Source: Chelatococcus asaccharovorans
GTDB taxonomy: Bacteria > Pseudomonadota > Alphaproteobacteria > Rhizobiales > Beijerinckiaceae
Assembly: GCF_003201475.1 (NCBI RefSeq)
Contig: NZ_QJJK01000007.1
Location: forward strand, 62,001 to 126,000
Direction: 5' to 3'
Length of the DNA stretch: 64,000 nt
In this document: positions 42,079 through 59,590 of the stretch, piece by piece
Numbering within the stretch: position 1 is the stretch's first letter
Layout: every line of letters begins with the position of its first letter
Notes under the pieces: model-generated
Database searches by the model: none
The model's input: only the letters and a program-made list of their open reading frames with translations
What the model was told of the DNA's origin: nothing
Made by a program: the position numbers and the translations under genes

Positions 42079-43284
42079 ATGCTGATGTCTGCAGACCGCC
42101 TTAGAAACGTGAAAGTGTCCGCCTCAGCGGCGATGACTGACAAGGCGCGCGAACTGCGCGCGCAAGGGATCGGGATCATCAGCTTGTCCTCCGGCGAGCC
42201 TGACTTTCCAACCCCTCTCCACGCGATCGAGGCCGCCCATAAGGCAGCGCTTGCCGGTGACACGAAGTATCCGCCCCAACCCGGAACGCCCGCGTTGCGC
42301 GCGGCCATCCAGCGCAAGTTCAAGCGCGACAACAATCTCGATTATGCGATCGGGGAAATCCTCGTCGCCAACGGTGGCAAGCAGATCATCTTCAACGCGC
42401 TGCTTGCCACCTGCAATCCTGGCGACGAGGTCATCATCCCATCGCCGGGCTGGATTACCTATGCGGATATCGCCTATCTCGCCGAGGCAACCCCGATTCC
42501 CGTTCCCTGCCCGGAGAATAACGGGTTCAAGCTGCGCCCGGAGGATATCGAGGCAGCCATCACGCCCCGAACGAAATGGCTGATCCTAAACTTCCCCAAT
42601 AACCCGACCGGCGCAGCGTGCACGCGGGACGAGATGCGGGCGATCGCCGAGGTCCTGCTCAGGCATCCGCATGTCTTGATCCTCACCGACGACATCTATG
42701 AACATCTGACCTATGACGGCTTCAAGTTCTGCACTTTGGCGGAGGTCGAACCCGCGTTGCGGGACCGCGTCCTGACGGTGAACGGGGTCTCGAAGGCTTA
42801 TGCGATGACGGGGTGGCGCGTGGGCTATTGCGGAGGCCCGAAGTCCTTGATCGACGTCATGAACAATGTGCATGGACAGGCGACGGGGGGCATTACAACC
42901 GTCAGTCAGGCGGCAGCGGTCGCGGTGCTGGACGGGCCCCAAGACCTTCTGAAGGAGCGCGCCACGATCTATCAGGCCCGTCGCGATCTCGTCGTGGAAT
43001 TGCTCAATGCGATCCCCGGCATCACCTGCCACAAGCCCGAGGGCGCATTCTACGTCTATCCGAACATCGCCAGCTGTATCGGCAAGACGACAGCGGGCGG
43101 TCGCGCTATCGAGACGGACACGGACTTCGTGTCTGCTTTGTTGGAGGAAGCTCATGTCGCCGCGGTACCGGGTAGCGCCTATGGCATGAGCCCCCACTTT
43201 CGCATTTCCTATGCGACGGATATTGACTCGCTGAAAGAGGGATGTCTCCGCATTGCTCAGCTCTGCGCTGGCTTGTCGTCATAG
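42079..43284 (+). CDS. class I PLP-dependent aminotransferase (aspartate aminotransferase-like)
   Basis: This 401-residue aminotransferase has the AspC-type layout: ISLSSGEPDFPTP near residue 35, NFPNNPTGAACT near residue 172, and the PLP-binding Lys in NGVSKAYAMTGWRVGY near residue 239. Substrate is not readable; members act on Asp, Glu, prephenate or hydroxy-glutamate-like acids. It lies 44 bases after the SDR gene. Because pxpA, pxpB and pxpC in the same block would release a glutamate-like product, a role in deaminating that product is plausible. Confidence 0.92.
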   Translation: MLMSADRLRNVKVSASAAMTDKARELRAQGIGIISLSSGEPDFPTPLHAIEAAHKAALAGDTKYPPQPGTPALRAAIQRKFKRDNNLDYAIGEILVANGGKQIIFNALLATCNPGDEVIIPSPGWITYADIAYLAEATPIPVPCPENNGFKLRPEDIEAAITPRTKWLILNFPNNPTGAACTRDEMRAIAEVLLRHPHVLILTDDIYEHLTYDGFKFCTLAEVEPALRDRVLTVNGVSKAYAMTGWRVGYCGGPKSLIDVMNNVHGQATGGITTVSQAAAVAVLDGPQDLLKERATIYQARRDLVVELLNAIPGITCHKPEGAFYVYPNIASCIGKTTAGGRAIETDTDFVSALLEEAHVAAVPGSAYGMSPHFRISYATDIDSLKEGCLRIAQLCAGLSS

Positions 43285-43630: not shown

Positions 43631-43684
43631 TTGAGCGACCATTTCAATCCGTTTTCGCCGAGGGCATCCGGTGATGGCCGCTGA
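43631..43684 (+). CDS. possible leader peptide overlapping the permease start
   Basis: A 17-codon frame (MSDHFNPFSPRASGDGR) starts at a TTG behind a strong GGAGGT ribosome binding site (43621-43626) and ends at TGA 43682-43684, overlapping the GTG/ATG start of the permease. It could couple translation to the permease. The sequence of the peptide is not distinctive. Confidence 0.3.
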   Translation: MSDHFNPFSPRASGDGR

Positions 43685-44588
43685 GATTGATTCCTCAATC
43701 ACTCAGCCCCGCGGGCGGGCGCCGGCGTTCGGTCTCCGGTTATCGGCCAGTTATTTGATGATACCAATGCTGGCCTTCCTCGCCTATTTCTTCTTCTATC
43801 CCGCGCTGCGTCTGCTGTTCTCCAGCATTCAGACGCAGAACAGTCAGGGGATAGTCGGCCCACCCTATACCTTGGAGCACTATACGCGCCTGCTCAACGT
43901 AGATCTCTATGCACGCGTATTCTGGAATACGCTTCGCATGAGCGTCATCACATCGTTGATTGCTACGATTCTGGCCTATCCGGTCGCGATCGTGATGGTC
44001 AAAAGTCGGCCGATGGTGACGCGGATCATCACCCTCATCGTCATCGCCCCCTTGATCGTCAGTGTGGTCGTGCGCGGCTACGGCTGGCAGCTCATCCTGA
44101 CGAACGGGCCGAAGGGCCTCCTGAATTGGCTTCTGATGAGCCTCGGGATCGTCGATGCGCCCCTGTCCATTCTCTATACCGAGGCAGCGGTCATCATCGG
44201 CTCCCTGCATGTATTCTATCCGATGATGGTTTTGCCGCTCGCTTCGGCTTTGGGAAAAATAGATCCCAATCTCGAGGACGCCGCACGCATGCTTGGCGCG
44301 CCCTGGTGGAAGGTATTCCTTCGGGTGACGCTTCCGCTCAGCCTCCCAGGATTCGTTGCGGGTTTCACGATCGTCTTTTCGCTCACCGCCGGATCCTTCG
44401 TTATCCCCGCGATATTGGGCGGCGCTTCAGCCATCATGCTTGGAAATCTCATCGAGCAACAGATATTCGTGGTCTACGACTGGCCCTTCGGCGCGGCGAT
44501 CGCCCTCATCCTTGTTGCCGTCGTCTTTGCGGTGAACGGGTTTTCAATGTGGCTCCTTGAGGGCCGCCGCCTGAGGAGGCCGGCCTGA
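43671..44588 (+). CDS. ABC transporter permease, PotB type
   Basis: This 305-residue inner-membrane permease is of the spermidine/putrescine-type family. The GTG at 43671 and the ATG at 43674 are adjacent starts. It has a first span ending in the periplasmic FSSIQTQNSQGIVGPPYTLEHY-like loop, of which GPPYTLEHYTRLL is conserved, and the EAA loop NLEDAARMLGAPWWKVFLRV near residue 200. Its stop overlaps the next permease ATG. The substrate may be a polyamine, an amino-acid derivative or another small cation. Confidence 0.93.
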   Translation: MMAAEIDSSITQPRGRAPAFGLRLSASYLMIPMLAFLAYFFFYPALRLLFSSIQTQNSQGIVGPPYTLEHYTRLLNVDLYARVFWNTLRMSVITSLIATILAYPVAIVMVKSRPMVTRIITLIVIAPLIVSVVVRGYGWQLILTNGPKGLLNWLLMSLGIVDAPLSILYTEAAVIIGSLHVFYPMMVLPLASALGKIDPNLEDAARMLGAPWWKVFLRVTLPLSLPGFVAGFTIVFSLTAGSFVIPAILGGASAIMLGNLIEQQIFVVYDWPFGAAIALILVAVVFAVNGFSMWLLEGRRLRRPA

Positions 44589-45391
44589 TGGACGAGCGCT
44601 TTTCCGGCCCAGGAGCCTGGATCCTCTATGCGATAACGATCGCCATGATGATCTTCATCCTGTCGCCTCTATTGCTGGTGATGGCCGTATCGGTCTCGGA
44701 TTCGTACTTCGTCACCTTTCCACCCGAGGGCTTCACCTTGAAATGGTACGCCAAGGTGCTGCAGGATCGGGACTTCATAGACGCGATGCAATTGAGCATC
44801 CTGCTCGCGCTCGGCGCCACCATAGGTTCGCTTCTCCTGGGTGTCCCCGCGGCCTTCGCGCTCGTGCGCGGCGACTTCTTCGGCGCGGCGGCGATCACGG
44901 GCTTCCTGCTCTCGCCGCTGATCTTTCCGGCACTTGTCACGGGCTTGGCCCTATTGCAGGTCTTGTCCAGGCTGGGTTCCGAGGATGCGCGTCTGAACCT
45001 TCTGATCGGCCATATCGTTGTGACAGCGCCCTATGTTATCCGCACGGTTTTGAGCAGCCTGCTGCTGGTCGACGAGAATCTCGAGGACGCCGCACGGACG
45101 CTGGGCGCGAGCCGCATGCGCACGTTCTGGCGGGTGACGTTGCCACAGATCGCCTCTGGCGTTGCTGCCGGCGGGCTGTTCGCTTTCATGGTCTCTTTTG
45201 ACAATTACCCGATTTCCATGTGGCTGGCGAACTCGGAGTATTCGCCTGTGCCGCTTGTCCTCATGCGCCAACTGGTCAATGTCTTCGATCCATCGGTTCC
45301 AGCGATGTCGACGATCATCATTCTCTTCGCGATGGCCGGTGTGCTGGTGCTGGAGCGCTTGGTTGGCCTGCGGCGAGCCCTAACCGTATAG
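44588..45391 (+). CDS. ABC transporter permease, PotC type
   Basis: This 267-residue partner permease starts with ATG overlapping the previous TGA (TGATG). It has SPLLLVMAVSVSDSYFVTFP near residue 25, FTLKWYAKVL, and the EAA loop NLEDAARTLGASRMRTFWRV. The binding-protein gene follows after 118 bases with its own ribosome binding site. Confidence 0.93.
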   Translation: MDERFSGPGAWILYAITIAMMIFILSPLLLVMAVSVSDSYFVTFPPEGFTLKWYAKVLQDRDFIDAMQLSILLALGATIGSLLLGVPAAFALVRGDFFGAAAITGFLLSPLIFPALVTGLALLQVLSRLGSEDARLNLLIGHIVVTAPYVIRTVLSSLLLVDENLEDAARTLGASRMRTFWRVTLPQIASGVAAGGLFAFMVSFDNYPISMWLANSEYSPVPLVLMRQLVNVFDPSVPAMSTIIILFAMAGVLVLERLVGLRRALTV

Positions 45392-45509
45392 GATCGACGC
45401 GGGTCCTAACGATACACCGGTCTAGTAGGACAAGAAATATACCTGGATTTACCAGGGTGTTGAAAATTCGCCTCGCTCAAATACTATTTATAATGATGGG
45501 GAACTTATA

Positions 45510-46571
45510 ATGACCTTTACACGCAGAAATCTTATGAAAGCAGGAGCGGCTGCGGCTGTCTTTCCGACGATCATCAGCCGCGCGTCGGCGCAGGCCAAGC
45601 AGCTGCATGTCGGCGTTTATAATTCGGCACAAGGCAAACTCATCCAAAAAGAAGTCATTCCCAAATTCGAGGCGGAGTACAAGTGCCGGGTCTTCACGAC
45701 CGAGGGCGCGACGCTCGCCAATATCGCCGCGTTGCGCGCCACGCGGGATGCCCCACGCTTCAGCGTCATGTCGATGGACGACGTCGGCATTCCGCAAGCC
45801 AAGCAGGAAGGCCTGATCGACAAGCTCGATCCCGCCAAGATTCCGAATCTGGAAAAGGTCTACAAGCGCTATATTTTCGAGGACGGCTTTGGCGTGGGCT
45901 TCGCTATATCGAGCGCGGCGCTCTTTATCAACCCGCAGGTTACCAAGCCTATCCAGAGCTACGAAGAAATATTCGATCCGAAGTACCGCAAGCAGATATT
46001 GCTGAATACACCGAAGAACACGCAGAGCATCCTGATGCTCATCGTCGCGACCGCCTTGGCGACGGGCAAGCCCCTCAAGGAGGCGCAGTATCTGGTCGAC
46101 AGCGGCTGGGACAAGCTGGCGACGCTCAAGCCAAACATTCTGACGATTTACGACAGCGAGGCACAGGTGCTGCAGGTCGCCCAGGGCCAGGCGGCTATCG
46201 GCGGTATCGAATACTCCAAGGCCGTCTATCCGCATACTGCCAAGGGCGTTCCGCTCGACATGACCTTCCCCAAGGAAGGATCCTTCACAGGCATCAACAG
46301 CATCACGATGGTCAAGAATGCACCGGAGCCCGAACTGGGCGCCGCCTTCATCAATCGCATTCTCGAGCCGTCCGTGGCCAAGATGCTGGCGGAGCAGACC
46401 TTGAGCGCGCCGTCAGTCAGCGGTATCGAGTTCAAGCCGGAAGTCGCAAAGTTCTTGGCCTACCCCGATACCAAAGCCACAGAACTCGGGTTGTTCACGC
46501 CGGACTGGAACTATATCGTCCCACGCCGGGGTCCGTGGCTCGAGCGCTACAACCAGTTGTTCACAAGCTGA
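45510..46571 (+). CDS. ABC transporter substrate-binding protein, PotD type, with Tat-like signal
   Basis: This 353-residue binding protein starts MTFTRRNLMKAGAAAAVFPT with a twin-arginine pattern (TRRNLMK), cleavage probably after SAQA near residue 30, so it may be exported folded by the Tat system. The mature protein resembles spermidine/putrescine- and iron-type binding proteins (LHVGVYNSAQGKLIQKEVIP). A GGGGAAC ribosome binding site and a TATAAT-like box (45489-45494) precede it, so an internal promoter is possible. It supplies ligand to the two permeases upstream and the ATPase downstream. Confidence 0.92.
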   Translation: MTFTRRNLMKAGAAAAVFPTIISRASAQAKQLHVGVYNSAQGKLIQKEVIPKFEAEYKCRVFTTEGATLANIAALRATRDAPRFSVMSMDDVGIPQAKQEGLIDKLDPAKIPNLEKVYKRYIFEDGFGVGFAISSAALFINPQVTKPIQSYEEIFDPKYRKQILLNTPKNTQSILMLIVATALATGKPLKEAQYLVDSGWDKLATLKPNILTIYDSEAQVLQVAQGQAAIGGIEYSKAVYPHTAKGVPLDMTFPKEGSFTGINSITMVKNAPEPELGAAFINRILEPSVAKMLAEQTLSAPSVSGIEFKPEVAKFLAYPDTKATELGLFTPDWNYIVPRRGPWLERYNQLFTS

Positions 46572-46580
46572 GTGGATGTC

Positions 46581-47678
46581 ATGAAGTCGGCCGAAGTCAG
46601 GCTTGAGAATATCAGCAAGCAATACCACCGCTTGACGGCGGTCGACAATGTTTCGCTGAAGATTGAACCGGGCAGCATGATCGCGCTGCTCGGTCCAAGC
46701 GGATGTGGAAAGACCACCTGCCTGCGCATGATCGCCGGGCTTATCCGCCCCACTTCAGGTGGAATATTCGTCAACAATGCTGATATCACGCATGTTCCGG
46801 TCCATCGCCGGAACATCGGCATGTTGTTCCAGAATTATGCGCTGTTTCCGCATCTCACGGTCGAGGAGAACATTGCCTTCGGCCTCGAGATGCGGGGCAT
46901 CAAAAAGGCGGCGGCGAAGGCCAGGGTCGCGGAAGCGCTCACCCTGGTGCAGCTTTCGTCTTTTGGGGGCCGTTATCCGGCCCAGCTCTCAGGCGGCCAG
47001 CAACAGCGCGTTGCACTGGGGCGGGCGCTGGTCATCGAGCCGGCGATGCTGTTGCTTGACGAGCCGCTCGGTGCGCTCGACAAAGGGCTGCGCGAGAGCA
47101 TGCAGGTCGAATTGCGAGCCTTGCAGCAACGTCTCGGCCTGACGACGATCATGGTCACCCACGATCAGGATGAAGCCCTGACAATGGCCGACAAGATCGT
47201 TGTCATGCGGGCTGGAAATCTTGAGCAGGTCGGCTCTGCGACCGAGATTTACCAACGCCCCGTTTCGAAATTCGTCGCTAGCTTCATCGGCGTTTCTAAC
47301 ATGTTCGAGGGTGCTGTCGAGCGGCGTGAGGGCGCCGGCGGGCTTGTCGCAGCCAAATCGGGGATTAGGCTTCAGGTCGACAGCATGCCGTCGATGGCCT
47401 CCTCGGATGTGACCGTTTCCATCCGCCCGGAAGCGATCACCGTCGAGAAGGCGAATGGCCTTGAGGTGGCGGACCGTCCCAATGTCGTGGCGGCGCGTGT
47501 CGAGCAGGTGATCTACCGCGGGTTCATAAGCCATTATTACTTGAGGACCCAGGGTGGCCAGCAGCTCATTGCTTTCGAGCAAAACCAGCTTCACACCACA
47601 GGGCTGCGCCATACCGTTGGTGACGAGGTCGTCGCGCGCTGGGACGCCTCCAGTAATCACGTTATTCCGAACCCATAG
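46581..47678 (+). CDS. ABC transporter ATP-binding protein, PotA type
   Basis: This 365-residue ATPase has Walker A GPSGCGKTT, signature LSGGQQQR, Walker B MLLLDEPLGALD and a C-terminal TOBE domain (SIRPEAITVEK onward). The ATG at 46581 is preferred; a GTG right after the previous stop (46572) would add three residues. It completes the importer whose permeases and binding protein precede it. About 200 bases separate it from pxpB. Confidence 0.93.
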   Translation: MKSAEVRLENISKQYHRLTAVDNVSLKIEPGSMIALLGPSGCGKTTCLRMIAGLIRPTSGGIFVNNADITHVPVHRRNIGMLFQNYALFPHLTVEENIAFGLEMRGIKKAAAKARVAEALTLVQLSSFGGRYPAQLSGGQQQRVALGRALVIEPAMLLLDEPLGALDKGLRESMQVELRALQQRLGLTTIMVTHDQDEALTMADKIVVMRAGNLEQVGSATEIYQRPVSKFVASFIGVSNMFEGAVERREGAGGLVAAKSGIRLQVDSMPSMASSDVTVSIRPEAITVEKANGLEVADRPNVVAARVEQVIYRGFISHYYLRTQGGQQLIAFEQNQLHTTGLRHTVGDEVVARWDASSNHVIPNP

Positions 47679-47880: not shown

Positions 47881-48579
47881 TTGTTGACCGACCATGCTGC
47901 CCTCGCACCCTTCATCGCAACGATTGCGAAGGATCCGAAGATCAGCTCCATCGGCACCCTGGCTCTGCTGGTGGAGGCACCGGGTGAATTCACAATTGAG
48001 CAACAGAGCCGCATCTGGGCTTTGGCGGATATTGTCTCATCCTGGCCGAATGTTCAGGAGGCTGTTCCGGGTGTCACCAATCTCATGCTGATATTCGATC
48101 AGCCGCCTGAAGCTCTTGACGGGTTGAGCGCAGCCATCGTCGAACTCTGGCATAATCTGCCGTGCAGGGACATCTCAGGCAAGCTCATTGAGATACCGGT
48201 GATCTACGGCGGCGAAGCCGGGTTTGACCTGCCCGCGGTGGCGGCACGCACCCGGCTATCGGAGCGAGATGTCATCCGCATCCACAGCGGGGGCGAGTAT
48301 ACGGTCTGTGCCATCGCCAGTTCGCCCGGCTTCGGATATCTCCATGGTCTTGATCCGCGCATCTTCATGCCGCGGAAGTCGGTGCCTTCGCTGAACATGC
48401 GCGCCGGTTCCGTCACCATCGGCGGCATGCAGACCGGCGTGGCGGTGGTGACGAGCCCCAATGGCTGGAATGCCATCGGCTGGGCGTCGCTGCCAATGTT
48501 CGATCCCCTGAGCGACAACCCGTCGCTGATGCTGCCGGGCGATCAAGTCAAGTTCAGGATCGATCGGATCGAGCTGTGA
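47881..48579 (+). CDS. pxpB: 5-oxoprolinase subunit B-like protein (PxpB/KipI family), copy 1
   Basis: PxpB with PxpA and PxpC hydrolyses 5-oxoproline to glutamate with ATP. The 232-residue protein has the family core VIYGGEAGFDLPAVAARTRL, IHSGGEYTVCAI, SPGFGYLHGLDPRIFMPRK and SVTIGGMQTGV. The N-terminal part (LGTLALLVEAPGEFT-type sequence, read here as IGTLALLVEAPGEF) is closer to that of copy 2 at 57557 than to textbook PxpB. The start is a TTG at 47881 with GGAG seven bases before it. Its stop overlaps the pxpC start. Confidence 0.88.
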   Translation: MLTDHAALAPFIATIAKDPKISSIGTLALLVEAPGEFTIEQQSRIWALADIVSSWPNVQEAVPGVTNLMLIFDQPPEALDGLSAAIVELWHNLPCRDISGKLIEIPVIYGGEAGFDLPAVAARTRLSERDVIRIHSGGEYTVCAIASSPGFGYLHGLDPRIFMPRKSVPSLNMRAGSVTIGGMQTGVAVVTSPNGWNAIGWASLPMFDPLSDNPSLMLPGDQVKFRIDRIEL

Positions 48580-49547
48580 TTGAAGTGCTGACGAGCTTCG
48601 CGCTCAACACCGTTCAGGACAAGGGTCGTGTCGGCGTGCGCCGCTTCGGTGTCAGCACGTCCGGCGTCATGGATCCCCTCGCGCTGACGGTCGGCAATAC
48701 GCTTCTGGGCAATGACGAGAACGCCGCGTGCATCGAGGTGCAGACCTTTCCTTTCCGGATCCGTTTCACCATCGATTGCGCGTTCGCAGTCACGGGGGCC
48801 GACTGCATGGCGAGGCTCGGGGAGGTATCCTTGCCGCCGTGGTGGTGTGCTCAGGCCAAGGCTGGAGATGTACTTCAGCTCAACGCACCAAAACGGGGTG
48901 CGCGCGGCTATATTACCTTTCGCGGCGGCCTTGATCTGCCGCTGATCCTGGGTTCGCGCAGCACGCATTTGCGGTCCGGGTTTGGCGGCTTCGAGGGCCG
49001 TCCGCTGATGGCGGGTGACGCGCTTCCGCTCTGCTCGGCGGCGGCCCCCACCGAGGGACGTGTGGGCTTCGGTGCCGAGCCGCCGGACATCGCGATTCCT
49101 GCGCCGGTCGACGGAAAGGCTTTGCAGGTGCGCGCGCTGCGCGCCGGTGAATACGACCTGTTCCCCACGGCGATGCAAGACCTGTTCTGGTCGACGCTCT
49201 GGAAAATCGGCATGCAAAGCGATCGCGGCGGCTATCGCCTCGCGGGGCCGAAACTCTTGCTGCCAGAGCCCGTCGAGATGCGCTCTCACGGCGTGGTTCC
49301 GGGCGTCATACAGGTGCCACCGGCGGGCGAACCTATTGTCCAGATGAGCGATGCAAACACGGCGGGCGGCTATCCGAAGATCGCCGCCGTCGTACAAGCC
49401 GACCTCTGGCGGCTTGGGCAGGCGAAGCCGGGATCATTCGTGACCTTCAAGGGTGTGAGCTACCGCGAGGCCGTCGCCGCGATGGATCCGGTCGAAAACT
49501 ACCTTGCGCGCGTTGGCACAACGAGTGCGCTCTACCGGGCGCTTTGA
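48576..49547 (+). CDS. pxpC: 5-oxoprolinase subunit C-like protein (PxpC/KipA family), copy 1
   Basis: This 323-residue protein is the carboxyltransferase-fold partner of PxpB. It begins MIEVLTSFALNTVQDKGRVG and has the RFGVSTSGVMDPLAL motif, GNDENAACIEVQ, FRGGLDLPLILGSRSTHLR and the ending with GYPKIAAVVQADLWRLGQ. The GTG at 48576 overlaps the pxpB stop (GTGA). In urea carboxylase the equivalents of PxpC and PxpB form the carboxyltransferase domain. Together with pxpA downstream this makes a complete PxpABC set. Confidence 0.9.
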   Translation: MIEVLTSFALNTVQDKGRVGVRRFGVSTSGVMDPLALTVGNTLLGNDENAACIEVQTFPFRIRFTIDCAFAVTGADCMARLGEVSLPPWWCAQAKAGDVLQLNAPKRGARGYITFRGGLDLPLILGSRSTHLRSGFGGFEGRPLMAGDALPLCSAAAPTEGRVGFGAEPPDIAIPAPVDGKALQVRALRAGEYDLFPTAMQDLFWSTLWKIGMQSDRGGYRLAGPKLLLPEPVEMRSHGVVPGVIQVPPAGEPIVQMSDANTAGGYPKIAAVVQADLWRLGQAKPGSFVTFKGVSYREAVAAMDPVENYLARVGTTSALYRAL

Positions 49548-49585: not shown

Positions 49586-50353
49586 ATGAAGATCGATGTC
49601 AATTCGGATATGGGTGAGGGCTTCGGGCCCTATCGCATTGGCGACGACGAGGCTCTGATGAACATCGTCTCGTCCGCCAATATCGCATGCGGCTTTCACG
49701 CTGGTGATCCCCTTATCATGGATCGCACGGTGCGCATGGCCAAGGCGAAGGGTGTGGGCATCGGTGCGCATCCCGGCCTGCCCGATCTCCTGGGCTTCGG
49801 ACGTCGCGTCATCCAGATGGATGCCACGGAGATCGAGAAGCACATGGTCTACCAGATCGGTGCTTTGCAAGCGATTGCCCTGAACGCCGGCCATCGCGTC
49901 ACCCATGTCAGCTTCCATGCGGCCATGGGCAACATGGTCAATGCCGATCCCGACATGGCGGATCTCGTCGCACGGGCGATCGCTGCCGTCGATCGCGATC
50001 TCATCGTGTTCTCCATGCCGGATATGGAGATCGTGCGGGCCGCTCAGGCCGCGGGCTTGCGGGTTCTTACGATGTTCCTGGCAGACCGCGCCTATGATGC
50101 GGACGCCAATCTCGTGTCCCGGAAACTCCGCAACTCGGTCATCACGTCACCGGATGCAGTGGCGAAGCGTGTTCAGCGCTTTCTCGACAGCGGAACGATA
50201 GAGACCATCGAGGGCCAGTCGATCAAGATTGAGGCCCGCTCCATTCTCGTCCACAGCGACACGCCCGGCGCCGTCGATCTCGCGGCCACGGTCCGCCGTG
50301 TCATCGAACAGGGCGGCGGCACCATTACTCCGGCGACGGCATTGCTGGCGTGA
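49586..50353 (+). CDS. pxpA: 5-oxoprolinase subunit A (PxpA, LamB/YcsF family)
   Basis: This 255-residue protein has the diagnostic N terminus MKIDVNSDMGEGFGPY, then SSANIACGFHAGDP, GIGAHPGLPDLLGFGRR and LVHSDTPGAVDLA near the C terminus. PxpA is needed with PxpB and PxpC for ATP-dependent opening of 5-oxoproline. The ATG at 49586 follows GGGAGCTGG and begins the conserved sequence. It is the last gene of the block and is followed by a bidirectional terminator. Confidence 0.94.
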   Translation: MKIDVNSDMGEGFGPYRIGDDEALMNIVSSANIACGFHAGDPLIMDRTVRMAKAKGVGIGAHPGLPDLLGFGRRVIQMDATEIEKHMVYQIGALQAIALNAGHRVTHVSFHAAMGNMVNADPDMADLVARAIAAVDRDLIVFSMPDMEIVRAAQAAGLRVLTMFLADRAYDADANLVSRKLRNSVITSPDAVAKRVQRFLDSGTIETIEGQSIKIEARSILVHSDTPGAVDLAATVRRVIEQGGGTITPATALLA

Positions 50354-51634: not shown

Positions 51635-52579
51635 TCAGTCAGCATGTTTTCCTATGATATCGGTTTGCTCTTGATCCAGTGATTCACTCAACCTGCAAGT
51701 GAGCTTCTCAAGTATTTGGCGCACAGCTTCCGCTGGTTCTGACAGGGGATTGTTGTCCGGCGTGCAGATGGACAATGTTTCCTCGATAGTCGGGGCAACG
51801 ATTGGATTCACGGTCGTTTGGTCGTTGAGCTGCATATCCCGCGCGAAGGCAGCGGGTAGAATCGTCGCGGCAATGCCCTCGTTCACGCTTTGCGCAAGAG
51901 TGATCAGCGATTCCACCTCAGCAATGAGATTGAGCGGTGTGCCGTTCCGGGTGAAGGCCAGTTCGACGGCCCGTCGTACGAAGTTGTAGATGGGAGGAAG
52001 CAGCATGGGAATGTCGGCCAGTTGCTCAACGGAAACGGGCTCGCCTTGCTGCCAACCGGACGTCGCCGGCGAGATCAAGCAGAAACGTTCGGTCATGATG
52101 GGCTTGAAGCGCGCGCCCTTGATCGGGCCCGCACCATGGATCACTGCAAGGTCGAGCCTGCCGTTGATGACGAGTTCGCTATAGGCTTGTCCGAAGCTGT
52201 CCACGATATGCAATCGCACGCCGGGCAGCTCGCTGCGAACCGCCTTCAACAGCGGCACGGAAAGTCGCATGCCGCTGCTATAGGGTGCAACGCCGATCGA
52301 GACCTTTCCTGAGACGGTATAGCGGGAAACGCTGACGTCTGAATAGGCTTGGTCGAGTTGCCTCAGGATGACTTGCGCGTGCCGGTAGAGCGTCCTGCCG
52401 GCCTCCGTCAATGTAACGCCTTGTGGCCCACGAATAAGCAACTGTTGTCGGAAATGGACTTCCAAAGCGGCGAGTTGCTGGCTCAATGCGGGTTGCGCAA
52501 TGTTCAAGGCGTCAGCAGCACGTGTGATGCTGCCGGTATCGACAATCTTGATGAAGGACTGAAGGCGCCGCGTCTCCAA
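51635..52579 (-). CDS. LysR-family regulator A (Nac/Cbl-like), TTG start
   Basis: This 314-residue regulator begins METRRLQSFIKIVDTGSITR, with the helix-turn-helix in TRAADALNIAQPALSQQLAA. The TTG at 52579 is preferred because a GGAG ribosome binding site lies eight bases before it and because the paralogue at 53689 has the same arrangement; the frame stays open 53 codons upstream without similarity. It is related to Nac-type nitrogen regulators. It lies between the rraA-like and denD-like genes on the same strand. Confidence 0.9.
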   Translation of the reverse strand: METRRLQSFIKIVDTGSITRAADALNIAQPALSQQLAALEVHFRQQLLIRGPQGVTLTEAGRTLYRHAQVILRQLDQAYSDVSVSRYTVSGKVSIGVAPYSSGMRLSVPLLKAVRSELPGVRLHIVDSFGQAYSELVINGRLDLAVIHGAGPIKGARFKPIMTERFCLISPATSGWQQGEPVSVEQLADIPMLLPPIYNFVRRAVELAFTRNGTPLNLIAEVESLITLAQSVNEGIAATILPAAFARDMQLNDQTTVNPIVAPTIEETLSICTPDNNPLSEPAEAVRQILEKLTCRLSESLDQEQTDIIGKHAD

Positions 52580-52865
52580 GGGCCAAACTCCGCACAGCTG
52601 TAGCGTGTACAGCCACCACAATAGAGCATCAGGCATCGATTTGGCTTGAAGCAGTGGATGCTTGAAGAGAATGAGAGGCGTCCCTTCATCCCTCTGTCGA
52701 GGCACCTGCTTGCCCCATTGATGAGGTCGCCGAGGCAATGCTCAAGACAATGCGACGAAGAGACCCCATTCGGCCCTTAACGCAGGTCCTATGAAAGACC
52801 TCTCCGTCCCCAGGCAGGCGCGGCGCGCGACTTGAGCGCCTCGCCCCTCATTCCATCACACCCGC

Positions 52866-53537
52866 TCAGGCGAAGGCGCAGCCCTTAGCTTGCAGGACCT
52901 TGCCGATGCCGGACAATTCCAGAATATCTCCTCCGGCTTCCAGAGCCTTCATCACCTCGGCCTCCTTGTCCTCGCGCGCGCGGGACTTGGCCGTGACGTC
53001 GGCGATAGTCTCCCATGGCACAACGACAACCCCGTCGTCATCGGCGCTGACGATGTCGCCCGGACGGACGGCAACCCCGCCGATCACGATGGGGTGGTTG
53101 ATGAAACCGAGCGTTTCCTTGACCGTGCCCTTCATGCACAGGCCATAACAAAAAACGTTGAAGCCGCGCGCATGAATGGCGGGCCCGTCACGGACACCCG
53201 CGTCCGTCACAAGGCCGACGATGCCCTTTGCCATGCAGGCGGTCGATAGAACCTCTCCAAAACCACCTTGCTCCGGGTGGTCGCCCGCGCTCACTACGAG
53301 AATGTCGCCAGGGCTTGCAAGCGAGATCGCGGTTATCAGCATCATGTTGTCGCCAGGGTGGCAGCTGACGGTAAAAGCCGGACCGCAAGCGCGCATGCCC
53401 GGATAAATCGGCTTGATGCGTGAAGTCAGCGCGCCGGAACGCCCCTGCGCCTCGTGCAGCGTCGACGGCGGAAACTGCTTGATCCGTTCGACAAGTTCCG
53501 CAGCAGGCCGCTCGAAGTTTCTGATGACGTGAGCCAT
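52866..53537 (-). CDS. RraA-family protein (4-hydroxy-4-methyl-2-oxoglutarate aldolase-like)
   Basis: This 223-residue protein has the RraA/HMG-aldolase fold. The conserved GLVTDAGVRDGPAI segment carries the Arg-Asp pair that binds pyruvate and metal, and GDIVSADDDGVVVVP is a family hallmark. Enzymes of this family cleave 4-hydroxy-2-oxo acids to pyruvate and a second carbonyl compound. The ATG at 53537 follows GGGAGGA. Its position between two LysR genes and near pxpABC and an aminotransferase suggests the substrate derives from a 4-hydroxyglutamate-like compound; that is inference. Confidence 0.88.
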   Translation of the reverse strand: MAHVIRNFERPAAELVERIKQFPPSTLHEAQGRSGALTSRIKPIYPGMRACGPAFTVSCHPGDNMMLITAISLASPGDILVVSAGDHPEQGGFGEVLSTACMAKGIVGLVTDAGVRDGPAIHARGFNVFCYGLCMKGTVKETLGFINHPIVIGGVAVRPGDIVSADDDGVVVVPWETIADVTAKSRAREDKEAEVMKALEAGGDILELSGIGKVLQAKGCAFA

Positions 53538-53688
53538 GGTTCCTCCCAAGGATGGCGCGAATTGATCACACGTCACGCTACTTAGTCAGCCCGACATCCA
53601 GGGGACAAATCCATATTTTCTGATTGAGGTATTGGATTTCGTTATGGGGGGACGCCACGCTGGGGCGTGGCGTCGCGCGCCTTCAGAT

Positions 53689-54639
53689 CTACTCGGCGAG
53701 AAACGCCTCCGGGTCCATGCTGTGAGGCGAAATATCGTCTTTGAACAGCGCGATCGTTTCCAAAAGTATATTGTAGACAGCAAATGCCGCATCCGACAGG
53801 CGAGCATAGTCCGATATGCAGAGCGACATCTGCAAAGACGCAGCAGGCGAATCGATCCGTCGAAGGCCGAGCTGCTCAAAATTCGGCAAGGCTTGCGCGA
53901 CTGTTTTCGGAAGCACCGTCGCGCCCACGCCCGCCATCATTGCAGATGACAATGTCGAGCGGGATTGGATTTCCGCCACGATGCGCAAGCGCTCGCCAAC
54001 TTCAGCGCAAACCCGCTCTATCGCCTGCCGCAGGAACGACTCGCGTGAAGGCAGCATCAAGTCGATCTTTGCCAATTCCTCGGGCCGGATATCTTGCGCC
54101 CATAGCTCGGAGGAGAATATATCGCGTGGTGCAACCAAGTAGAACTCTTCCATCACAAGAGGCTTGTAGTCGAGACCACGCACTGAACGGTCGCCATAAA
54201 GGATGGCTATGTCCATGCTACCTTTGAGCATGAGTTCGCTGAGTGTGACACCAAAGCTGTCGAAGATGTGCAGGATGATACCGGGATGGCGCCGGCGCAG
54301 CTGCGTCAGCAGAGGCGGCCCGAACAAGGTCGCGGAGCTGAGAGGCGCAAGGCCTATGGTTACGTTGCCTGAGAGCTCCTGCTCACTGTCGAGTACGCTG
54401 CGCCGGGCTTCATCGATCTGCCGCTGGATGGATTTCGCATAGCGATAGAGCGTCCGGCCCGCTTCCGTGGGCATGACGCCACGCGTGCTCCTCACGAGTA
54501 GCTGACGCTTGAATTCGGCTTCCAGGCTGGCGATCTGCTGACTCAACGCCGGTTGGGCAACGTTCAAAACCTTAGCTGCGCTCGTCACGCTACCGAGGTC
54601 GACCACCTTCACAAAAGCTTCTAGACGTCGAGTTTCCAA
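53689..54639 (-). CDS. LysR-family regulator B (paralogue of A), TTG start
   Basis: This 316-residue regulator begins METRRLEAFVKVVDLGSVTS and is similar to regulator A over the whole length (ALSQQIASLE, LTEAGRTLYRYAK-like and HIFDSFGVTLSEL segments in both). The TTG at 54639 has a GGAGAAGG ribosome binding site; a GTG at 54654 is an alternative start. It is divergent from the SDR gene at 54839, the head of the biotin-carboxylase block, which it probably regulates. The intergenic region contains a GCTCTAGAGC palindrome (54691-54700). Confidence 0.9.
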   Translation of the reverse strand: METRRLEAFVKVVDLGSVTSAAKVLNVAQPALSQQIASLEAEFKRQLLVRSTRGVMPTEAGRTLYRYAKSIQRQIDEARRSVLDSEQELSGNVTIGLAPLSSATLFGPPLLTQLRRRHPGIILHIFDSFGVTLSELMLKGSMDIAILYGDRSVRGLDYKPLVMEEFYLVAPRDIFSSELWAQDIRPEELAKIDLMLPSRESFLRQAIERVCAEVGERLRIVAEIQSRSTLSSAMMAGVGATVLPKTVAQALPNFEQLGLRRIDSPAASLQMSLCISDYARLSDAAFAVYNILLETIALFKDDISPHSMDPEAFLAE

Positions 54640-54838
54640 TCCGGCCTTCTCCACGCGCAGGCTTAGAAAACGTTATACACCAAACCTATGGCTCTAGAGC
54701 GAAATCTTCTTAGCGCTCGCCGCACGCCGCGTCCTATAGCTATTCGAGGAATTGATATCGAGAGCAATCCCGTCCACTGGCAGGTTCACCGCGCTGTCAC
54801 GGATGGGAAGGCCGGCATATGCACAGGGAGCCGTCGCG

Positions 54839-55597
54839 ATGGCTTTTTCGGATTATCGAACGGCATTGGTGACGGGCGCATCCTCCGGGATCGGCGCCGC
54901 CACCGTACGCCGGCTATGCGCCGAAGGCTTGACGGTTCATGCCGTCGCCCGCAATGCCGAGCGGCTGGAAGAACTGGCAGCCGAGACCGGATGTAAACCG
55001 CATCCGGTGGACGTCGGAGACAGCGCCGCAGTCGAGCGCCTTATCGACGCCATCGAGATCGATGTTCTCGTCAATAATGCCGGCCAGTCACGGCGGGGAA
55101 ACATTCTTGACACCACACCCGAGGATGTCGACGCGCTGGTCGACATCAATCTGCGAGCGGTCCTGCATCTCACGCGCCTCGTCGTGCCGGGGATGGCGCA
55201 GCGCAACCGTGGTCATGTCATCAACATCTCCTCGATTGCCGGGCACTACGCCTTTCCGGGCGGAAACACAGTTTATCACGCGACGAAGGCGGGTGTCCAT
55301 TCGCTGTCGCAGCAGTTGCGGGTTGATCTTTTCGGGAAGAACGTGCGGGTTACGGAAATATCTCCTGCCCGCGTGGAAACAGAAGTCTTTGGTCGACTGC
55401 TCGGGGATCTCGCCGAAGCGAAGCGTCGCTTTTTCGACGATTACGATTCTTTGCAGCCCGAAGATCTTGCCAATGCCATCGCCTTCGTCGTCGATGCACC
55501 CGCCCGCATGAATGTTGCTTTCATGGAGGTTTTGCCCACCCAACAAGTCGTCGGTGGACTGAACTTTGCCCAAAGGAAGACACCGACCACCTCGTGA
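54839..55597 (+). CDS. SDR-family oxidoreductase, copy 2 of the paralogous pair
   Basis: This 252-residue short-chain dehydrogenase begins MAFSDYRTALVTGASSGIGA, has NNAGQS and the catalytic YHATK, and is closely similar throughout to the 41273 protein. The ATG follows CAGGGAG. It opens the second block and is separated from the biotin carrier gene by only 46 bases. The presence of one copy in each block suggests that both blocks handle related substrates. Confidence 0.92.
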   Translation: MAFSDYRTALVTGASSGIGAATVRRLCAEGLTVHAVARNAERLEELAAETGCKPHPVDVGDSAAVERLIDAIEIDVLVNNAGQSRRGNILDTTPEDVDALVDINLRAVLHLTRLVVPGMAQRNRGHVINISSIAGHYAFPGGNTVYHATKAGVHSLSQQLRVDLFGKNVRVTEISPARVETEVFGRLLGDLAEAKRRFFDDYDSLQPEDLANAIAFVVDAPARMNVAFMEVLPTQQVVGGLNFAQRKTPTTS

Positions 55598-55643: not shown

Positions 55644-56132
55644 GTGGACCTTGCCCAAATTGCAGAACTGATTGATCTGGTCTCGCGGTCACGCATCGCG
55701 GAACTTGATGTGAGCCGGGACGGAACCCGCGTCAGAATATGGAGATACGCGTCAGCCGGCGACACGGCTGCCGTCTCACACAGCGCCGAAAGAGCTCGTG
55801 AAAGTGCTCCGGTCACCACCGCCGCGGAGGTCTCATCTGAGCCAGCGCCACAAACGGCGCGCGCGGCCACGGAGACGATCGTCCAGGCGCCCATGCACGG
55901 CATTTTCCACCGCGCATCCGCGCCCGGCGCGGCGCCATTCGCCGAGGTCGGCTCGCCTGTCGAAGCCGGCCAGAAAATCTGCATCATCGAGGCGATGAAG
56001 ACGTTCATCGGTGTGGAGGCGGAGGCCAGCGGAACCGTGCTGGCCGTGCTGGCCGACAATGGTGCGGAGGTCGAGGCCGGGCAGCCGTTGTTTCGCATCG
56101 GCCCGCAGCCGGCGGACGTTGATCGCGTATAG
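55644..56132 (+). CDS. accB: biotin carboxyl carrier protein (AccB-like)
   Basis: This 162-residue carrier has an N-terminal helix (MDLAQIAELIDLVSRSRIAE), an Ala/Pro-rich linker (about residues 45-80) and a biotinyl domain with EAMK at residues 116-119; Lys119 should carry biotin. The family length is about 155, which supports the GTG at 55644; a GTG at 55599 is also in frame. It is followed by the biotin carboxylase gene and, further on, the pxpB/pxpC-like genes, so it probably serves that complex and not the housekeeping acetyl-CoA carboxylase alone. Confidence 0.9.
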   Translation: MDLAQIAELIDLVSRSRIAELDVSRDGTRVRIWRYASAGDTAAVSHSAERARESAPVTTAAEVSSEPAPQTARAATETIVQAPMHGIFHRASAPGAAPFAEVGSPVEAGQKICIIEAMKTFIGVEAEASGTVLAVLADNGAEVEAGQPLFRIGPQPADVDRV

Positions 56133-56201
56133 CCCGATCGCTCCAGGCTGCGGGCAGGATCGGGCCTTGAGAACTGCGAGCCGAATAATGCGAGCCCAAA
56201 G

Positions 56202-57557
56202 ATGTTCGACACAATTCTGATCGCCAATCGCGGGGAGATCGCCCTTCGCATTCAGCGTGCCTGCCGGGCGCTGGGGCTAAAGACTGTTGTGATCCACTCC
56301 GAGGCGGACAGGGACGCACGCTATGTGCAACTGGCGGATCAGGCGCTCTGCATCGGCCCGGCACCGGCTGGCAGGACCTATCTCAATTCCGCCGCTATCC
56401 TGCTCGCCGCAGAGGTCAGCGGCGCCGGGGCCATCCATCCCGGATACGGCTTCCTGTCGGAGAATGCCGCCTTCGCGGACAAGGTGGCCGCGGCGGGGCT
56501 GACCTTCATCGGCCCACCGGCCGATTGCATCCGGACCATGGGCGACAAGGTCGCCGCCAAGCGGGCTATGCGTGGCGCGGGCGTGCCCTGTGTCCCGGGG
56601 CCGGACGGTGCGTTGCCCGATGAGGCGAATGACGTCGCCGACATCGCGCGGGAGATCGGATACCCTGTGATCATCAAGGCAGCCGGCGGCGGCGGTGGGC
56701 GCGGCATGCGGATCGTGCGTCAGGAGTCCGAGCTCGCTGAAGCTCTGCCTTTGACGCGCGAGGAGGCGCGCCAGGCCTTTGGAAATCCCGATGTCTATAT
56801 CGAGAAGTTTCTGGAGAACCCGCGCCACATCGAAATCCAGGTTCTGTGTGACAGCCATGGCAATGCCATCTGGCTGGGTGACCGCGATTGCTCGCTCCAG
56901 CGACGCAACCAGAAAGTCGTGGAGGAAGCGCCAGCACCCGGGATCGATCGCGCGCTCCTGCAACGTGTCGGGGAGACCTGTGTCGAGGCGTGCCGTCGCA
57001 TCGGCTATCGCGGCGCCGGCACATTTGAATTTCTTTACGAGGAAAATGCGTTCTTCTTCATAGAGATGAACACGCGCATCCAGGTCGAGCACCCGGTGAC
57101 CGAGGCGGTGACCGGCATCGATATCGTCAAGGAGCAGATCCGCGTCGCCCAGGGCGAGCGGCTGTCATTTTCCCAGAGGGATATCGCACCCCGGGGGCAC
57201 GCGATCGAGTTTCGCATTAACGCGGAAAACCCCTTCACCTTCGCGCCGTCACCTGGAGTCGCGACGTGCTGGGACGTGCCGGGCGGCATCGGCGTCCGCG
57301 TCGATTCCCACATGGTGGCCGGCGGTAGCGTTCCCCGATACTATGACTCGCTCATCGGCAAGCTGATCGTCCATGGCGGGGATCGCGCGGAGGCTCTCTC
57401 TCGCGCGCGCGTCGCGCTGTCGGAGATGCGCGTCGAGGGCATTGACACGAACCTGCCGCTGCATAAGGCGCTTCTCGACGATCCCGTCTTCCGCCAGGGC
57501 GGCTATGCTATTCATTATCTTGAGCATTGGCTGCGCGACAGGGCAGAGGCAGCCTGA
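56202..57557 (+). CDS. accC: biotin carboxylase (AccC-like)
   Basis: This 451-residue ATP-grasp enzyme carboxylates biotin on the carrier with ATP and bicarbonate. The N terminus is [17 protein letters not shown], the Gly-rich loop is [14 protein letters not shown], and [20 protein letters not shown] carries catalytic residues. Length is normal for AccC. Its stop overlaps the next start (TGATG), coupling it to the PxpB-like gene. The standard partner is an acyl-CoA carboxyltransferase (AccAD), but here the adjacent genes encode the PxpB/PxpC-type carboxyltransferase fold, as in urea carboxylase. Confidence 0.93.
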
Positions 57558-58216
57558 TGTCCAGCGCCGGCCCCTGCATCAGCCTTCTCGGCACGACGGC
57601 GGTGCTCCTTGAAGCGCCGGGCGCCATGGACCTGCCGACGCAACGGCGGATCTGGAATCTGGCCGCCCTGATCAGTGGCTGGCCGGGCGTGCGCGAAGCC
57701 ATTCCGGGCGTCACCAACCTGATGGTGACCTTCATATCTCCGCCCAGCGCGATCGGCACATTCGTCGACGCGCTCCGCGATGCCTGGGACGAGGCAGGCG
57801 AGACCGAACTTGTCGGGCGCGAGGTCGAGATGGCCGTGACCTATGGCGGCGAGCTCGGTTTCTCGCTCCACGACGTTGCCGAGCACACCGGCCTGTCGAT
57901 CGACGAGGTCGTTGCGCGTCATGCGGCGCCGCTCTACGTGGTCTTCGCCTTGGGCAGCCACCCTGGTTACTGCTACCTCGGCGGCATGGATCCCAGCCTC
58001 ACCGTGCCACGCCGCAGGTCGCCGCTGCAAAGCGTGGCGGGTGGCTCGGTCTCGATCGGCGGATCGCAGACCGGGGTCGCGGCGTCGCCGGGGCCGAGCG
58101 GCTGGCACACCATCGGCCATACGAGATGGACGTTCTTTGACCCGTCCTGGCCCATTCCCGCGGCCCTCGCCCCTGGAGACAGGGTCCGCTTCAAGATCGA
58201 GCGGGTGATCCGTTGA
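57557..58216 (+). CDS. PxpB/KipI-family protein, copy 2
   Basis: This 219-residue protein is a paralogue of the 47881 product: LGTTAVLLEAPGAMDLPTQR at the N terminus, PGVTNLMVTFISPP, VTYGGELGFSLHDVAEHTGL, HPGYCYLGGMDPSLTVPRR and SVSIGGSQTGV. It overlaps both the biotin carboxylase stop and, with its own stop, the PxpC-like start, so the four genes are tightly coupled. No pxpA is present in this block. It probably forms, with the PxpC-like protein, a carboxyltransferase-like heterodimer. Confidence 0.9.
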   Translation: MSSAGPCISLLGTTAVLLEAPGAMDLPTQRRIWNLAALISGWPGVREAIPGVTNLMVTFISPPSAIGTFVDALRDAWDEAGETELVGREVEMAVTYGGELGFSLHDVAEHTGLSIDEVVARHAAPLYVVFALGSHPGYCYLGGMDPSLTVPRRRSPLQSVAGGSVSIGGSQTGVAASPGPSGWHTIGHTRWTFFDPSWPIPAALAPGDRVRFKIERVIR

Positions 58217-59184
58217 TAGAGATCCTGTCCGTGCTCGGCCCTGCCAGCGTGCAGGACCTCGGGCGCGTCGGCCAATACCGATTCGGCGTGGGCACCTCCG
58301 GCGCGATGGACGACATCGCCTTGCGCGCCGGCAATATTCTCCTCGGCAACGACGAGAATGCCGCCGGCGTGGAGATCGCTTTCGCGCCTTTCAAGCTGCG
58401 TTTCAATGCCGATGCGGCCTTCGCATTGACCGGCGCCGACGGTGGCGCCGAGCTCAACGGACGCCTGCTTCCGCCATGGTGGCGGGCATGCGCTCACGCC
58501 GGCGACATCCTGGTCCTCAAGGCCATGTCCCGGGGCGCGCGCAGCTATCTCACCGTTGCCGGCGGCATTGATGTCCCCTTGGTGCTGGGGTCACGCAGCA
58601 CCCAGTTGCGGGGAGAATTCGGCGGCTTTCACGGTCGCGCCCTTCAGCCGGGGGATATCCTGCCCTGCGACCGCTCTGAATCTCCAGATGACGCCGGTGA
58701 ACTGGGGGCCGAGCCGGCGGATATCGCTCTGCGACAGCGGACCCTCGCCTCCGGGGCGCGCCGTATCCGCGTCATCATCGCCGGCGAATATGACCGGTAT
58801 GACGAGGCGGCGCGCCAGTTATTCTGGCACACCGATTGGAGAGTGACGCCCCAGAGCAACCGTTATGGCTACCGGCTGGAAGGGCCGCCCGTCCAGCCGA
58901 TCGTCCCCATCGAGAAGCGATCCCATGGAATCGTGCCCGGTGTCATACAGATCCCGCCCAACGGCCAGCCGATTATCCAGCTGCGGGACGCGCAGACGTC
59001 GGGAGGCTATCCGAAATTCGCGACCGTCGTCGAAGCGGATCTGTGGCGGATAGGCCAGGCGGGCCTCGGCAGCCGGCTCCGCTTCGAGCCGATCTCCCAT
59101 CAGGAGGCGCTGGCGGCGCAGGCCGAGGTCAGCGTTTACCTCGAGAGATTGCGCGCGAGTGTTCGTCTTCAAGGGGAACTGTAG
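58213..59184 (+). CDS. PxpC/KipA-family (biotin-dependent carboxyltransferase fold) protein, copy 2
   Basis: This 323-residue protein is a paralogue of the 48576 product and has the same length: MIEILSVLGPASVQDLGRVG, YRFGVGTSGAMDDIALRAGN and LLGNDENAAGVEI at the N terminus, and GSRSTQLRGEFGGF and GGYPKFATVVEADLWRIGQ later. The TTG start at 58213 overlaps the stop of the PxpB-like gene. The related domain in urea carboxylase transfers carboxyl from biotin to the substrate; the substrate here is unknown. Confidence 0.9.
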   Translation: MIEILSVLGPASVQDLGRVGQYRFGVGTSGAMDDIALRAGNILLGNDENAAGVEIAFAPFKLRFNADAAFALTGADGGAELNGRLLPPWWRACAHAGDILVLKAMSRGARSYLTVAGGIDVPLVLGSRSTQLRGEFGGFHGRALQPGDILPCDRSESPDDAGELGAEPADIALRQRTLASGARRIRVIIAGEYDRYDEAARQLFWHTDWRVTPQSNRYGYRLEGPPVQPIVPIEKRSHGIVPGVIQIPPNGQPIIQLRDAQTSGGYPKFATVVEADLWRIGQAGLGSRLRFEPISHQEALAAQAEVSVYLERLRASVRLQGEL

Positions 59185-59185
59185 A

Positions 59186-59590
59186 ATGGCGTTGAGCATT
59201 CGGGACATCGAGCATCTGGCGATCCTGCTTGAACGGTCCGGCTTGGGCGGGATCGAGATCGAGGACGCCGGACAGCGCCTGAAGATCACCTTGCACCATG
59301 TGGCCTTTTCGGGCACATCGGCCCATTCTCCCATGAATATTGCCACCACGTCGGCAGGGACCGTCGTGAAGGCGGAGGTCGCCGGCATTTACGTGGCGAG
59401 GCATCCGTGGCGGGAGAACCCGTTTGTTCAGCTTGGCCAGGCAGTCACGGAAGGCGAACTCGTCGGCTTGGTGAAGGTTGGCCGAATTTATACGCCGATT
59501 CCGTCGCCGGCGACCGGCTCGGTTGTAGAAATTTTAGTTGAAACCGGAACCGCGATCGGATTTGGAACACCTATAATCACGATAAAGTAG
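59186..59590 (+). CDS. biotin-carrier-like protein lacking the biotin lysine
   Basis: This 134-residue protein has the AccB layout: an N-terminal helix (RDIEHLAILLERSGLGGIEI) and a C-terminal biotinyl/lipoyl-type domain (AEVAGIYVARHP, GQAVTEGELVGLV, GSVVEILVETG, GTPIITI). At the position of EAMK it has KVGR (residues 97-100), so the modified Lys is missing. It may be a structural subunit, a carrier of another kind or a regulator. The ATG at 59186 follows AAGGGGAA. It is the last gene of the block. Confidence 0.85.
   Translation: MALSIRDIEHLAILLERSGLGGIEIEDAGQRLKITLHHVAFSGTSAHSPMNIATTSAGTVVKAEVAGIYVARHPWRENPFVQLGQAVTEGELVGLVKVGRIYTPIPSPATGSVVEILVETGTAIGFGTPIITIK

Follow-up and report, generated by a model that had tools for sequence, protein, structure and literature searches.

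The closest described relatives of the locus studied here are urea carboxylase and the prokaryotic 5-oxoprolinase PxpABC. The locus is a block of five genes at positions 55644-59590 of the window, i.e. of the 64,000-nucleotide stretch of Chelatococcus asaccharovorans DNA that was analysed (C7:62001-126000 of a 7.25 Mb assembly in 40 contigs; contigs are numbered with C and loci with L). Each subunit is encoded by a separate open reading frame (ORF): a biotin carboxyl carrier protein (BCCP), a biotin carboxylase (BC), a PxpB-like and a PxpC-like protein (PxpB2 and PxpC2) and a second carrier-like protein (BCCP2). Urea carboxylase (TIGR02712; Kluyveromyces lactis, 3va7 and 5i8i) likewise consists of BC, BCCP and a carboxyltransferase (CT) made up of CT_A_B and CT_C_D. 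The block differs from it in its separate subunits, in an arginine that replaces the lysine K1605, in an extra loop of PxpB and in having PxpA and BCCP2 alongside. Compared with PxpABC (Escherichia coli YbgJK, 5dud), the block adds BC, BCCP and BCCP2, the PxpB loop of its lineage (type I in the tree below) carries serine or alanine instead of phenylalanine, and the neighbouring genes are different. We propose, with a probability of roughly one half, that the block supplies the carboxylation step of an enzyme with several subunits that depends on biotin and, coupled to the hydrolase PxpA, opens a lactam resembling 5-oxoproline.

A PxpB/PxpC-type pair is also tied to a biotin carboxylase complex in Mycobacterium smegmatis. 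According to its title, PDB entry 9yx5 is a long chain acyl-CoA carboxylase complex with MSMEG_0435-MSMEG_0436 bound, a solved case of such contact. Judging by the chain names of the entry, its BC-BCCP chain is AccA3 of the acyl-CoA carboxylase, in contrast to the separate BC, BCCP and BCCP2 genes that share one block here. No publication on 9yx5 was found in the open PMC literature. The ATP-dependent caprolactamase CapAB also opens a lactam, and a bicarbonate-derived activation is discussed for it; unlike in our proposal, the mechanisms listed in the relevant passages of that paper include no biotin, and no similarity between CapAB and PxpABC is stated there (PMC8453981). Two split homologues of the urea carboxylase CT were mentioned as unstudied (Lombard and Moreira 2011, PMC3199775), and in a Lactiplantibacillus genome description an extra BCCP-BC copy and pxpB/pxpC are treated as separate acetyl-CoA carboxylase (ACC) and oxoprolinase features (PMC12427679). 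A biotin-dependent PxpABC was not found to be proposed in the excerpts returned from the open PMC literature.

The five-gene block

The five genes, all on the forward strand, had been predicted from the DNA alone, and both the ORFs and the family matches bear this out. BCCP (55644-56132, GTG start) has an EAMK biotinylation site with the biotinyl lysine and scores above the curated cut-off of TIGR00531 (122.8 against 115.2 bits). BC (56202-57557) is above that of TIGR00514 (670.3 against 626.5 bits) and is 59% identical to the organism's own AccC, yet it belongs to a different clade. PxpB2 (57557-58216, CT_C_D) represents one half of a urea-carboxylase-type CT and passes TIGR00370 (166.7 bits, curated cut-off 145.55); it has serine 134 in the GSHPG loop and arginine 152 at the position of urea carboxylase's catalytic lysine. 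PxpC2 (58213-59184, TTG start, CT_A_B) represents the other half; it passes TIGR00724 (309.1 bits, curated cut-off 230.2) and remains under the cut-off of the PxpC equivalog NF045499 (301.6 bits, cut-off 500). Finally, BCCP2 (59186-59590) is a carrier-fold protein with KVGR instead of EAMK, i.e. with no biotinyl lysine, and with a conserved His-Pro; it passes Pfam Biotin_lipoyl (36.4, cut-off 22.1) and stays under the TIGR00531 cut-off (49.7 against 115.2).

The overlaps that had been noted at 57557 and 58213 are present in the sequence: the BC stop codon TGA (57555-57557) overlaps the ATG at 57557, and the TTG start at 58213 overlaps the PxpB2 stop codon (58214-58216). The family scan recognised no further CT besides PxpB2/PxpC2 among the five genes, and no AccA or AccD among them, the rest of the genome not having been searched for these two. 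A scan for promoters and terminators was uninformative (3 promoter-like sites with 2.0 expected, 2 terminator-like sites with 4.7 expected).

The original prediction also held that PxpA is missing. This is literally true of the block; nevertheless the same window contains a PxpA (LamB/YcsF family, a ring-opening hydrolase) at 49586-50353 on the forward strand, where it follows another PxpB-PxpC pair. Scored minus its initial methionine, it reaches 341.8 bits with NF003814 (cut-off 226). The window thus contains two PxpB-PxpC pairs and a single PxpA. The first pair consists of PxpB1 (47881-48579, forward; TIGR00370 181.3 bits) and PxpC1 (48576-49547, forward), the latter in the same type I PxpC clade as PxpC2.

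Conservation of the arrangement in relatives

The usual gene order in relatives is BCCP-BC-PxpB-PxpC-BCCP2-PxpA, which is found as a single run in Bradyrhizobium guangxiense, Burkholderia pyrrocinia and Microvirga terrae. The five-gene block is not a chance arrangement, since its order recurs in many named species. Among the matches listed the nearest relative is plasmid CP092842.1 of Bradyrhizobium sp. 62B, in which both sets are present and convergent; B. iriomotense (L072) has both sets, too. Variants of the order also occur: in Rhizobium johnstonii BCCP2 lies upstream of PxpB, and in Terrarubrum BCCP-BC-BCCP2 is separate from PxpBC-PxpA, of which the stretch has a single set. The genes of relatives are annotated as ACC halves and 5-oxoprolinase subunits.

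The named loci are the best 80 of at least 577 relatives. BC occurs within 10 kb in 60 of the 80, a proportion that is no frequency because only the best matches were taken and the search alignment had been built mostly from biotin-linked relatives. These 60 loci all have BCCP2, and 59 of them have PxpA; BCCP2 is present in 70 of the 80. In a less selected sample CT_A_B was detected in 135 of 299 Pseudomonadota genomes. Outside the own genome 105 split-gene PxpC places were listed there, 80 of which were fetched; places in frames of at least 1,179 residues were excluded as urea-carboxylase-like, and further matches in those frames are not part of the list. BC lies within 9 kb in 24 of the 80 fetched loci, and PxpA accompanies it in 23. 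The sole sampled BC-bearing locus that has no PxpA, L190, stops at a contig edge. Because nearly every BC-bearing locus, named or sampled, has a PxpA nearby (59 of 60 and 23 of 24, respectively), the argument that had been drawn from its absence falls.

A carrier protein without a biotin site

BCCP2 aligns with BCCP over its length (20% identity; profile comparison probability 99.8) and has the BCCP fold, the fold search being uninformative on its N-terminal part. The biotinyl lysine in the hairpin is found in 0 of 77 second carriers versus 72 of 73 first carriers (counts that include the two carriers of the window and two further BCCPs encoded in this genome), and arginine takes its place in the block's BCCP2. 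BCCP2 as a second biotin carrier is therefore rejected on the motif. A decaying pseudogene is rejected as well, since BCCP2 is under purifying selection similar to that of the biotinylated carrier: the median dN/dS is 0.264 (68 pairs) versus 0.281 (85 pairs), calculated for pairs of 70-98.5% identity with dS of 0.1-1.5.

The single BCCP2 sequence, used as a query, found matches in 190 of 199 genomes, but most of what it recovers are ordinary BCCPs. With a BCCP2 profile, 5 of 397 genomes exceeded 100 bits and the others scored at most 83 bits, a range in which a true BCCP2 (L204, 70.8 bits) is mixed with ordinary carriers, so no frequency was derived.

Similarity to the carboxyltransferase of urea carboxylase

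Both halves of the urea carboxylase CT could be aligned with the Pxp proteins by hhalign, which confirms the likeness originally predicted. PxpC matches the CT_A_B half with probability 100 (E 6.6e-48, 36% identity over 292 columns), and here the fold agrees also; PxpB matches the other half with probability 95.7 (E 9.6e-9). The variability of two PxpB positions was followed in 158 of 171 sequences, 13 with at most 90 bits (the type II-like lineage and L233) being excluded. The lysine that serves urea carboxylase as general base (K1605 in the CT_C_D of the K. lactis enzyme) corresponds to arginine in PxpB2 and in all 158. At the loop position, all 84 PxpB whose loci have BCCP2 carry serine or alanine; where the locus has no BCCP2, phenylalanine is found in 70 of 74 PxpB, and the remaining four belong to the type I clade.

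The PxpB2/PxpC2 enzyme thus works like urea carboxylase in its build and is not a member of that family. Urea carboxylase as its identity was rejected on the lysine, on the extra PxpB loop and on the own genome, in which TIGR02712 has no match at E values up to 1e-200. Urea is an unlikely substrate, given the arginine at K1605.

Trees of PxpC and biotin carboxylase

The PxpC tree comprised 174 sequences and was rooted on four urea carboxylases. Biotin-linked genes are found in at least four of its lineages, i.e. L233 alone, type II, type III (support 1.0) and type I (87 sequences, support 0.956); both PxpC genes of the window fall in type I. Since the first two branches after the urea carboxylase root are among these lineages, the plain 5-oxoprolinase could be a descendant that has lost biotin. 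Type II loci are PxpA-BCCP-BC-PxpB-PxpC runs, and in type III PxpA adjoins PxpB-PxpC (fused in 8 of 9) and the BC chain has 587-888 residues.

We also observed that in type II (L181, L182, L184-L186, L190 cut by the contig end, L191, L199, L201 and L203) PxpB is strongly diverged and the carrier site, where seen, is EVMK. Type III (L208, L216, L218, L229, L230, L234, L235, L236 and L239) has phenylalanine in the PxpB loop and no BCCP2. One locus, L225 (6281-12089), is sister to the type I clade and encodes a second carrier-like protein without the canonical EAMK; it is a possible intermediate.

For the BC tree only the best BC per genome was included from the whole-genome BC searches. A dedicated clade of 71 sequences (68 from type I and 3 others, support 0.997) leaves the own AccC outside. 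As the own accB-accC pair also has a separate locus, on C3 behind an aroQ-like gene (named by eye), the block is likely to encode an enzyme other than ACC, as had been predicted.

Neighbouring genes and possible substrate

The neighbours of type I loci (n=70; 61 named, 6 plasmid and 3 sampled) were sought across the whole fetched locus and compared with those of plain PxpABC loci (n=47, including L204, which has BCCP2). It is conspicuous that the two sets keep different company: homologues of the aminotransferase occur in 64/70 vs 5/47, of the short-chain dehydrogenase/reductase (SDR) in 61/70 vs 1/47, of the LysR regulator in 59/70 vs 1/47, a polar amino-acid permease in 51/70 vs 1/47, the RraA-like aldolase in 46/70 vs 0/47 and a 2-hydroxyacid dehydrogenase in 20/70 vs 3/47. 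The count for ABC ATPases was discarded, because any ABC ATPase matches.

In the window, an aspartate-transaminase-like pyridoxal phosphate aminotransferase (42079-43284, forward; under the cut-off of NF004769) is followed by an ABC transporter (43671-47678, forward), in which one permease and the binding protein were recognised by Pfam and the second permease and the ATPase from reading the ORFs. Between PxpA and the block lie, on the reverse strand, a NAC-like LysR regulator (51635-52738; NF008410 302.9 bits, under the cut-off of 309), an RraA-like aldolase of the HMG/CHA kind (52866-53576; NF006731 219.5 bits, cut-off 179) and another NAC-like LysR regulator (53689-54654; 293.0 bits, under the same cut-off), and then, on the forward strand upstream of BCCP, an SDR oxidoreductase (54839-55597; its ATG at 54839 is within an ORF listed from 54752). 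The two LysR genes are similar to each other, as are the SDR genes at 41273-42034 and 54839-55597, and one of each kind is near each PxpB-PxpC set. With these paired genes the region gives the impression of two related operons that have been joined.

HMG/CHA aldolase converts 4-hydroxy-4-methyl-2-oxoglutarate into two pyruvates (PMC5065237). Given this reaction and the NF006731 match of the window's aldolase, a 4-hydroxylated, possibly 4-methylated, 5-oxoproline may be guessed as the substrate, a doubtful identification. We note as background that peanut is rich in 4-methyleneglutamine.

Related genes elsewhere in the genome

Three CT_A_B genes were found in the own genome, one on C2 and the others in the window; it also has two PxpA genes (window and C10) and eight Biotin_carb_C matches. 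The C2 PxpC groups with plain PxpC in the tree and the C2 PxpB carries the plain phenylalanine loop, so that a plain 5-oxoprolinase formed from the C2 PxpBC pair and the C10 PxpA is possible alongside the window set. On C2 (L029, 7314-12778) this plain-type pair directly precedes a two-subunit acyl-CoA carboxylase, consisting of a 540-aa CT-like protein and a 624-aa BC-BCCP protein, which may be compared with 9yx5. On C3 (L031, 8647-11999) a BCCP with the site EVMK, a BC and a 486-aa protein follow ABC transporter genes; the 486-aa protein resembles a pyruvate-carboxylase-type CT, and the three are candidates for a further split biotin enzyme.

Proposed mechanism and alternatives

In the proposed reaction the biotin of the first BCCP would be carboxylated by BC with bicarbonate and ATP, and the PxpB2/PxpC2 pair would pass the carboxyl group to the amide in the ring of a lactam similar to 5-oxoproline. 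PxpA (49586-50353) would then hydrolyse the activated ring, and the N-carboxy group would be lost as CO2. By analogy, N-carboxylation, hydrolysis and CO2 loss would parallel urea carboxylase and the carboxylated-lactim option considered for caprolactamase. BCCP2, as a biotin-free carrier paralogue, may dock or organise the subunits of such a complex in C. asaccharovorans. The product would be transaminated and cleaved, and the type of aldolase points to a glutamate skeleton that is hydroxylated at position 4 and perhaps methylated there as well.

Several observations weigh against this proposal. In the window 5.3 kb separate PxpA from the block, and it adjoins the other PxpB-PxpC pair; in L106 no PxpA lies within 10 kb, although BC and BCCP2 are present. 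As the catalytic lysine of urea carboxylase is replaced by arginine in every aligned PxpB, carboxyl transfer would need another base. The aldolase was not found in 24 of the 70 type I loci. What 9yx5 documents, judging by the title and the names of the chains, is binding to an acyl-CoA carboxylase and not lactam carboxylation. In Corynebacterium glutamicum the pxpTABC cluster, which has no BC gene, is described as sufficient for growth on 5-oxoproline, PxpB/PxpC being assumed there to phosphorylate it (PMC13274462). Moreover, 10 of the 70 loci with BCCP2 have no BC within 10 kb. Whole-genome BC searches covered nine of these ten (all but L095): a BC that belongs to the type I clade is encoded elsewhere in the genomes of L090 and L134, and in seven (L103, L109, L111, L128, L136, L140 and L151) the BC nearest to that of the block falls among AccC-like BC and not in that clade, which means that either AccC serves or biotin is dispensable.

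We also note that in three of the seven (L103, L109 and L111; Rouxiella and Erwinia) PxpB-PxpC-BCCP2-PxpA is kept and dedicated biotin genes were not found in the genome; besides the AccC-like BC, these genomes have only two BC, in frames of urea carboxylase length.

The missing lysine, the BC-free plain PxpABC, the seven genomes and the position of PxpA leave room for an ordinary ATP-dependent PxpABC 5-oxoprolinase, in which PxpBC may phosphorylate the lactam here as is assumed for C. glutamicum, and BC, BCCP and BCCP2 serve a neighbouring carboxylation, e.g. of the product or in anaplerosis. The arginine is common to PxpB of biotin-linked and other loci alike, and the seven genomes retain PxpBC with BCCP2 in spite of having no dedicated BC, both of which speak for phosphorylation. 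We nevertheless consider this explanation unlikely, since no other CT is recognised among the five genes, the BC, PxpB and PxpC genes overlap, BC is accompanied by BCCP2 in 60 of 60 loci, and the type I PxpB loop residue differs from that of the plain form.

In the second alternative, which is that of the original prediction, PxpA plays no part: a biotin-dependent carboxylase would act on an amide or lactam, and the carboxylated compound would itself be the product and be passed to other enzymes. The place of PxpA outside the block and locus L106, which combines BC, BCCP2 and PxpBC with no PxpA in reach, fit this picture; the presence of PxpA in nearly all BC-bearing loci and in the window makes it quite improbable. 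A little less probable again is that PxpB2C2 regulates the biotin carboxylase or docks to it and is not its CT, as could be the case for the pair bound to the acyl-CoA carboxylase complex in 9yx5. The missing lysine and the C2 pair in front of an acyl-CoA carboxylase agree with docking, whereas the family scan of the window recognises no acyl-CoA CT in the block, and the catabolic neighbours together with PxpA point to small-molecule chemistry. Finally, a spare ACC half, which would match the annotation of relatives and the ACC equivalog cut-offs that BC and BCCP pass, is highly improbable and disfavoured by the BC tree, the separate own accB-accC locus and the fact that PxpBC, BCCP2 and PxpA constantly accompany the two genes.

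Implications

Overall, the interpretation given in the original prediction is partly supported, and two features of the system are unusual: a carrier free of biotin is conserved, and PxpA is a constant companion. We tentatively put forward a biotin-dependent lactam hydrolase in which a PxpBC-type CT with a catalytic residue of its own would transiently N-carboxylate the ring for PxpA, a biotin-free BCCP paralogue would be an obligatory structural subunit, and from which plain 5-oxoprolinase could have arisen by loss of biotin. If these proteins do form one enzyme, it would be a new biotin-dependent class of amide-ring opening, a cofactor-free protein of the carrier fold would receive a testable role, and many annotations would be corrected. 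It would also bear on the question of how PxpB and PxpC use ATP.

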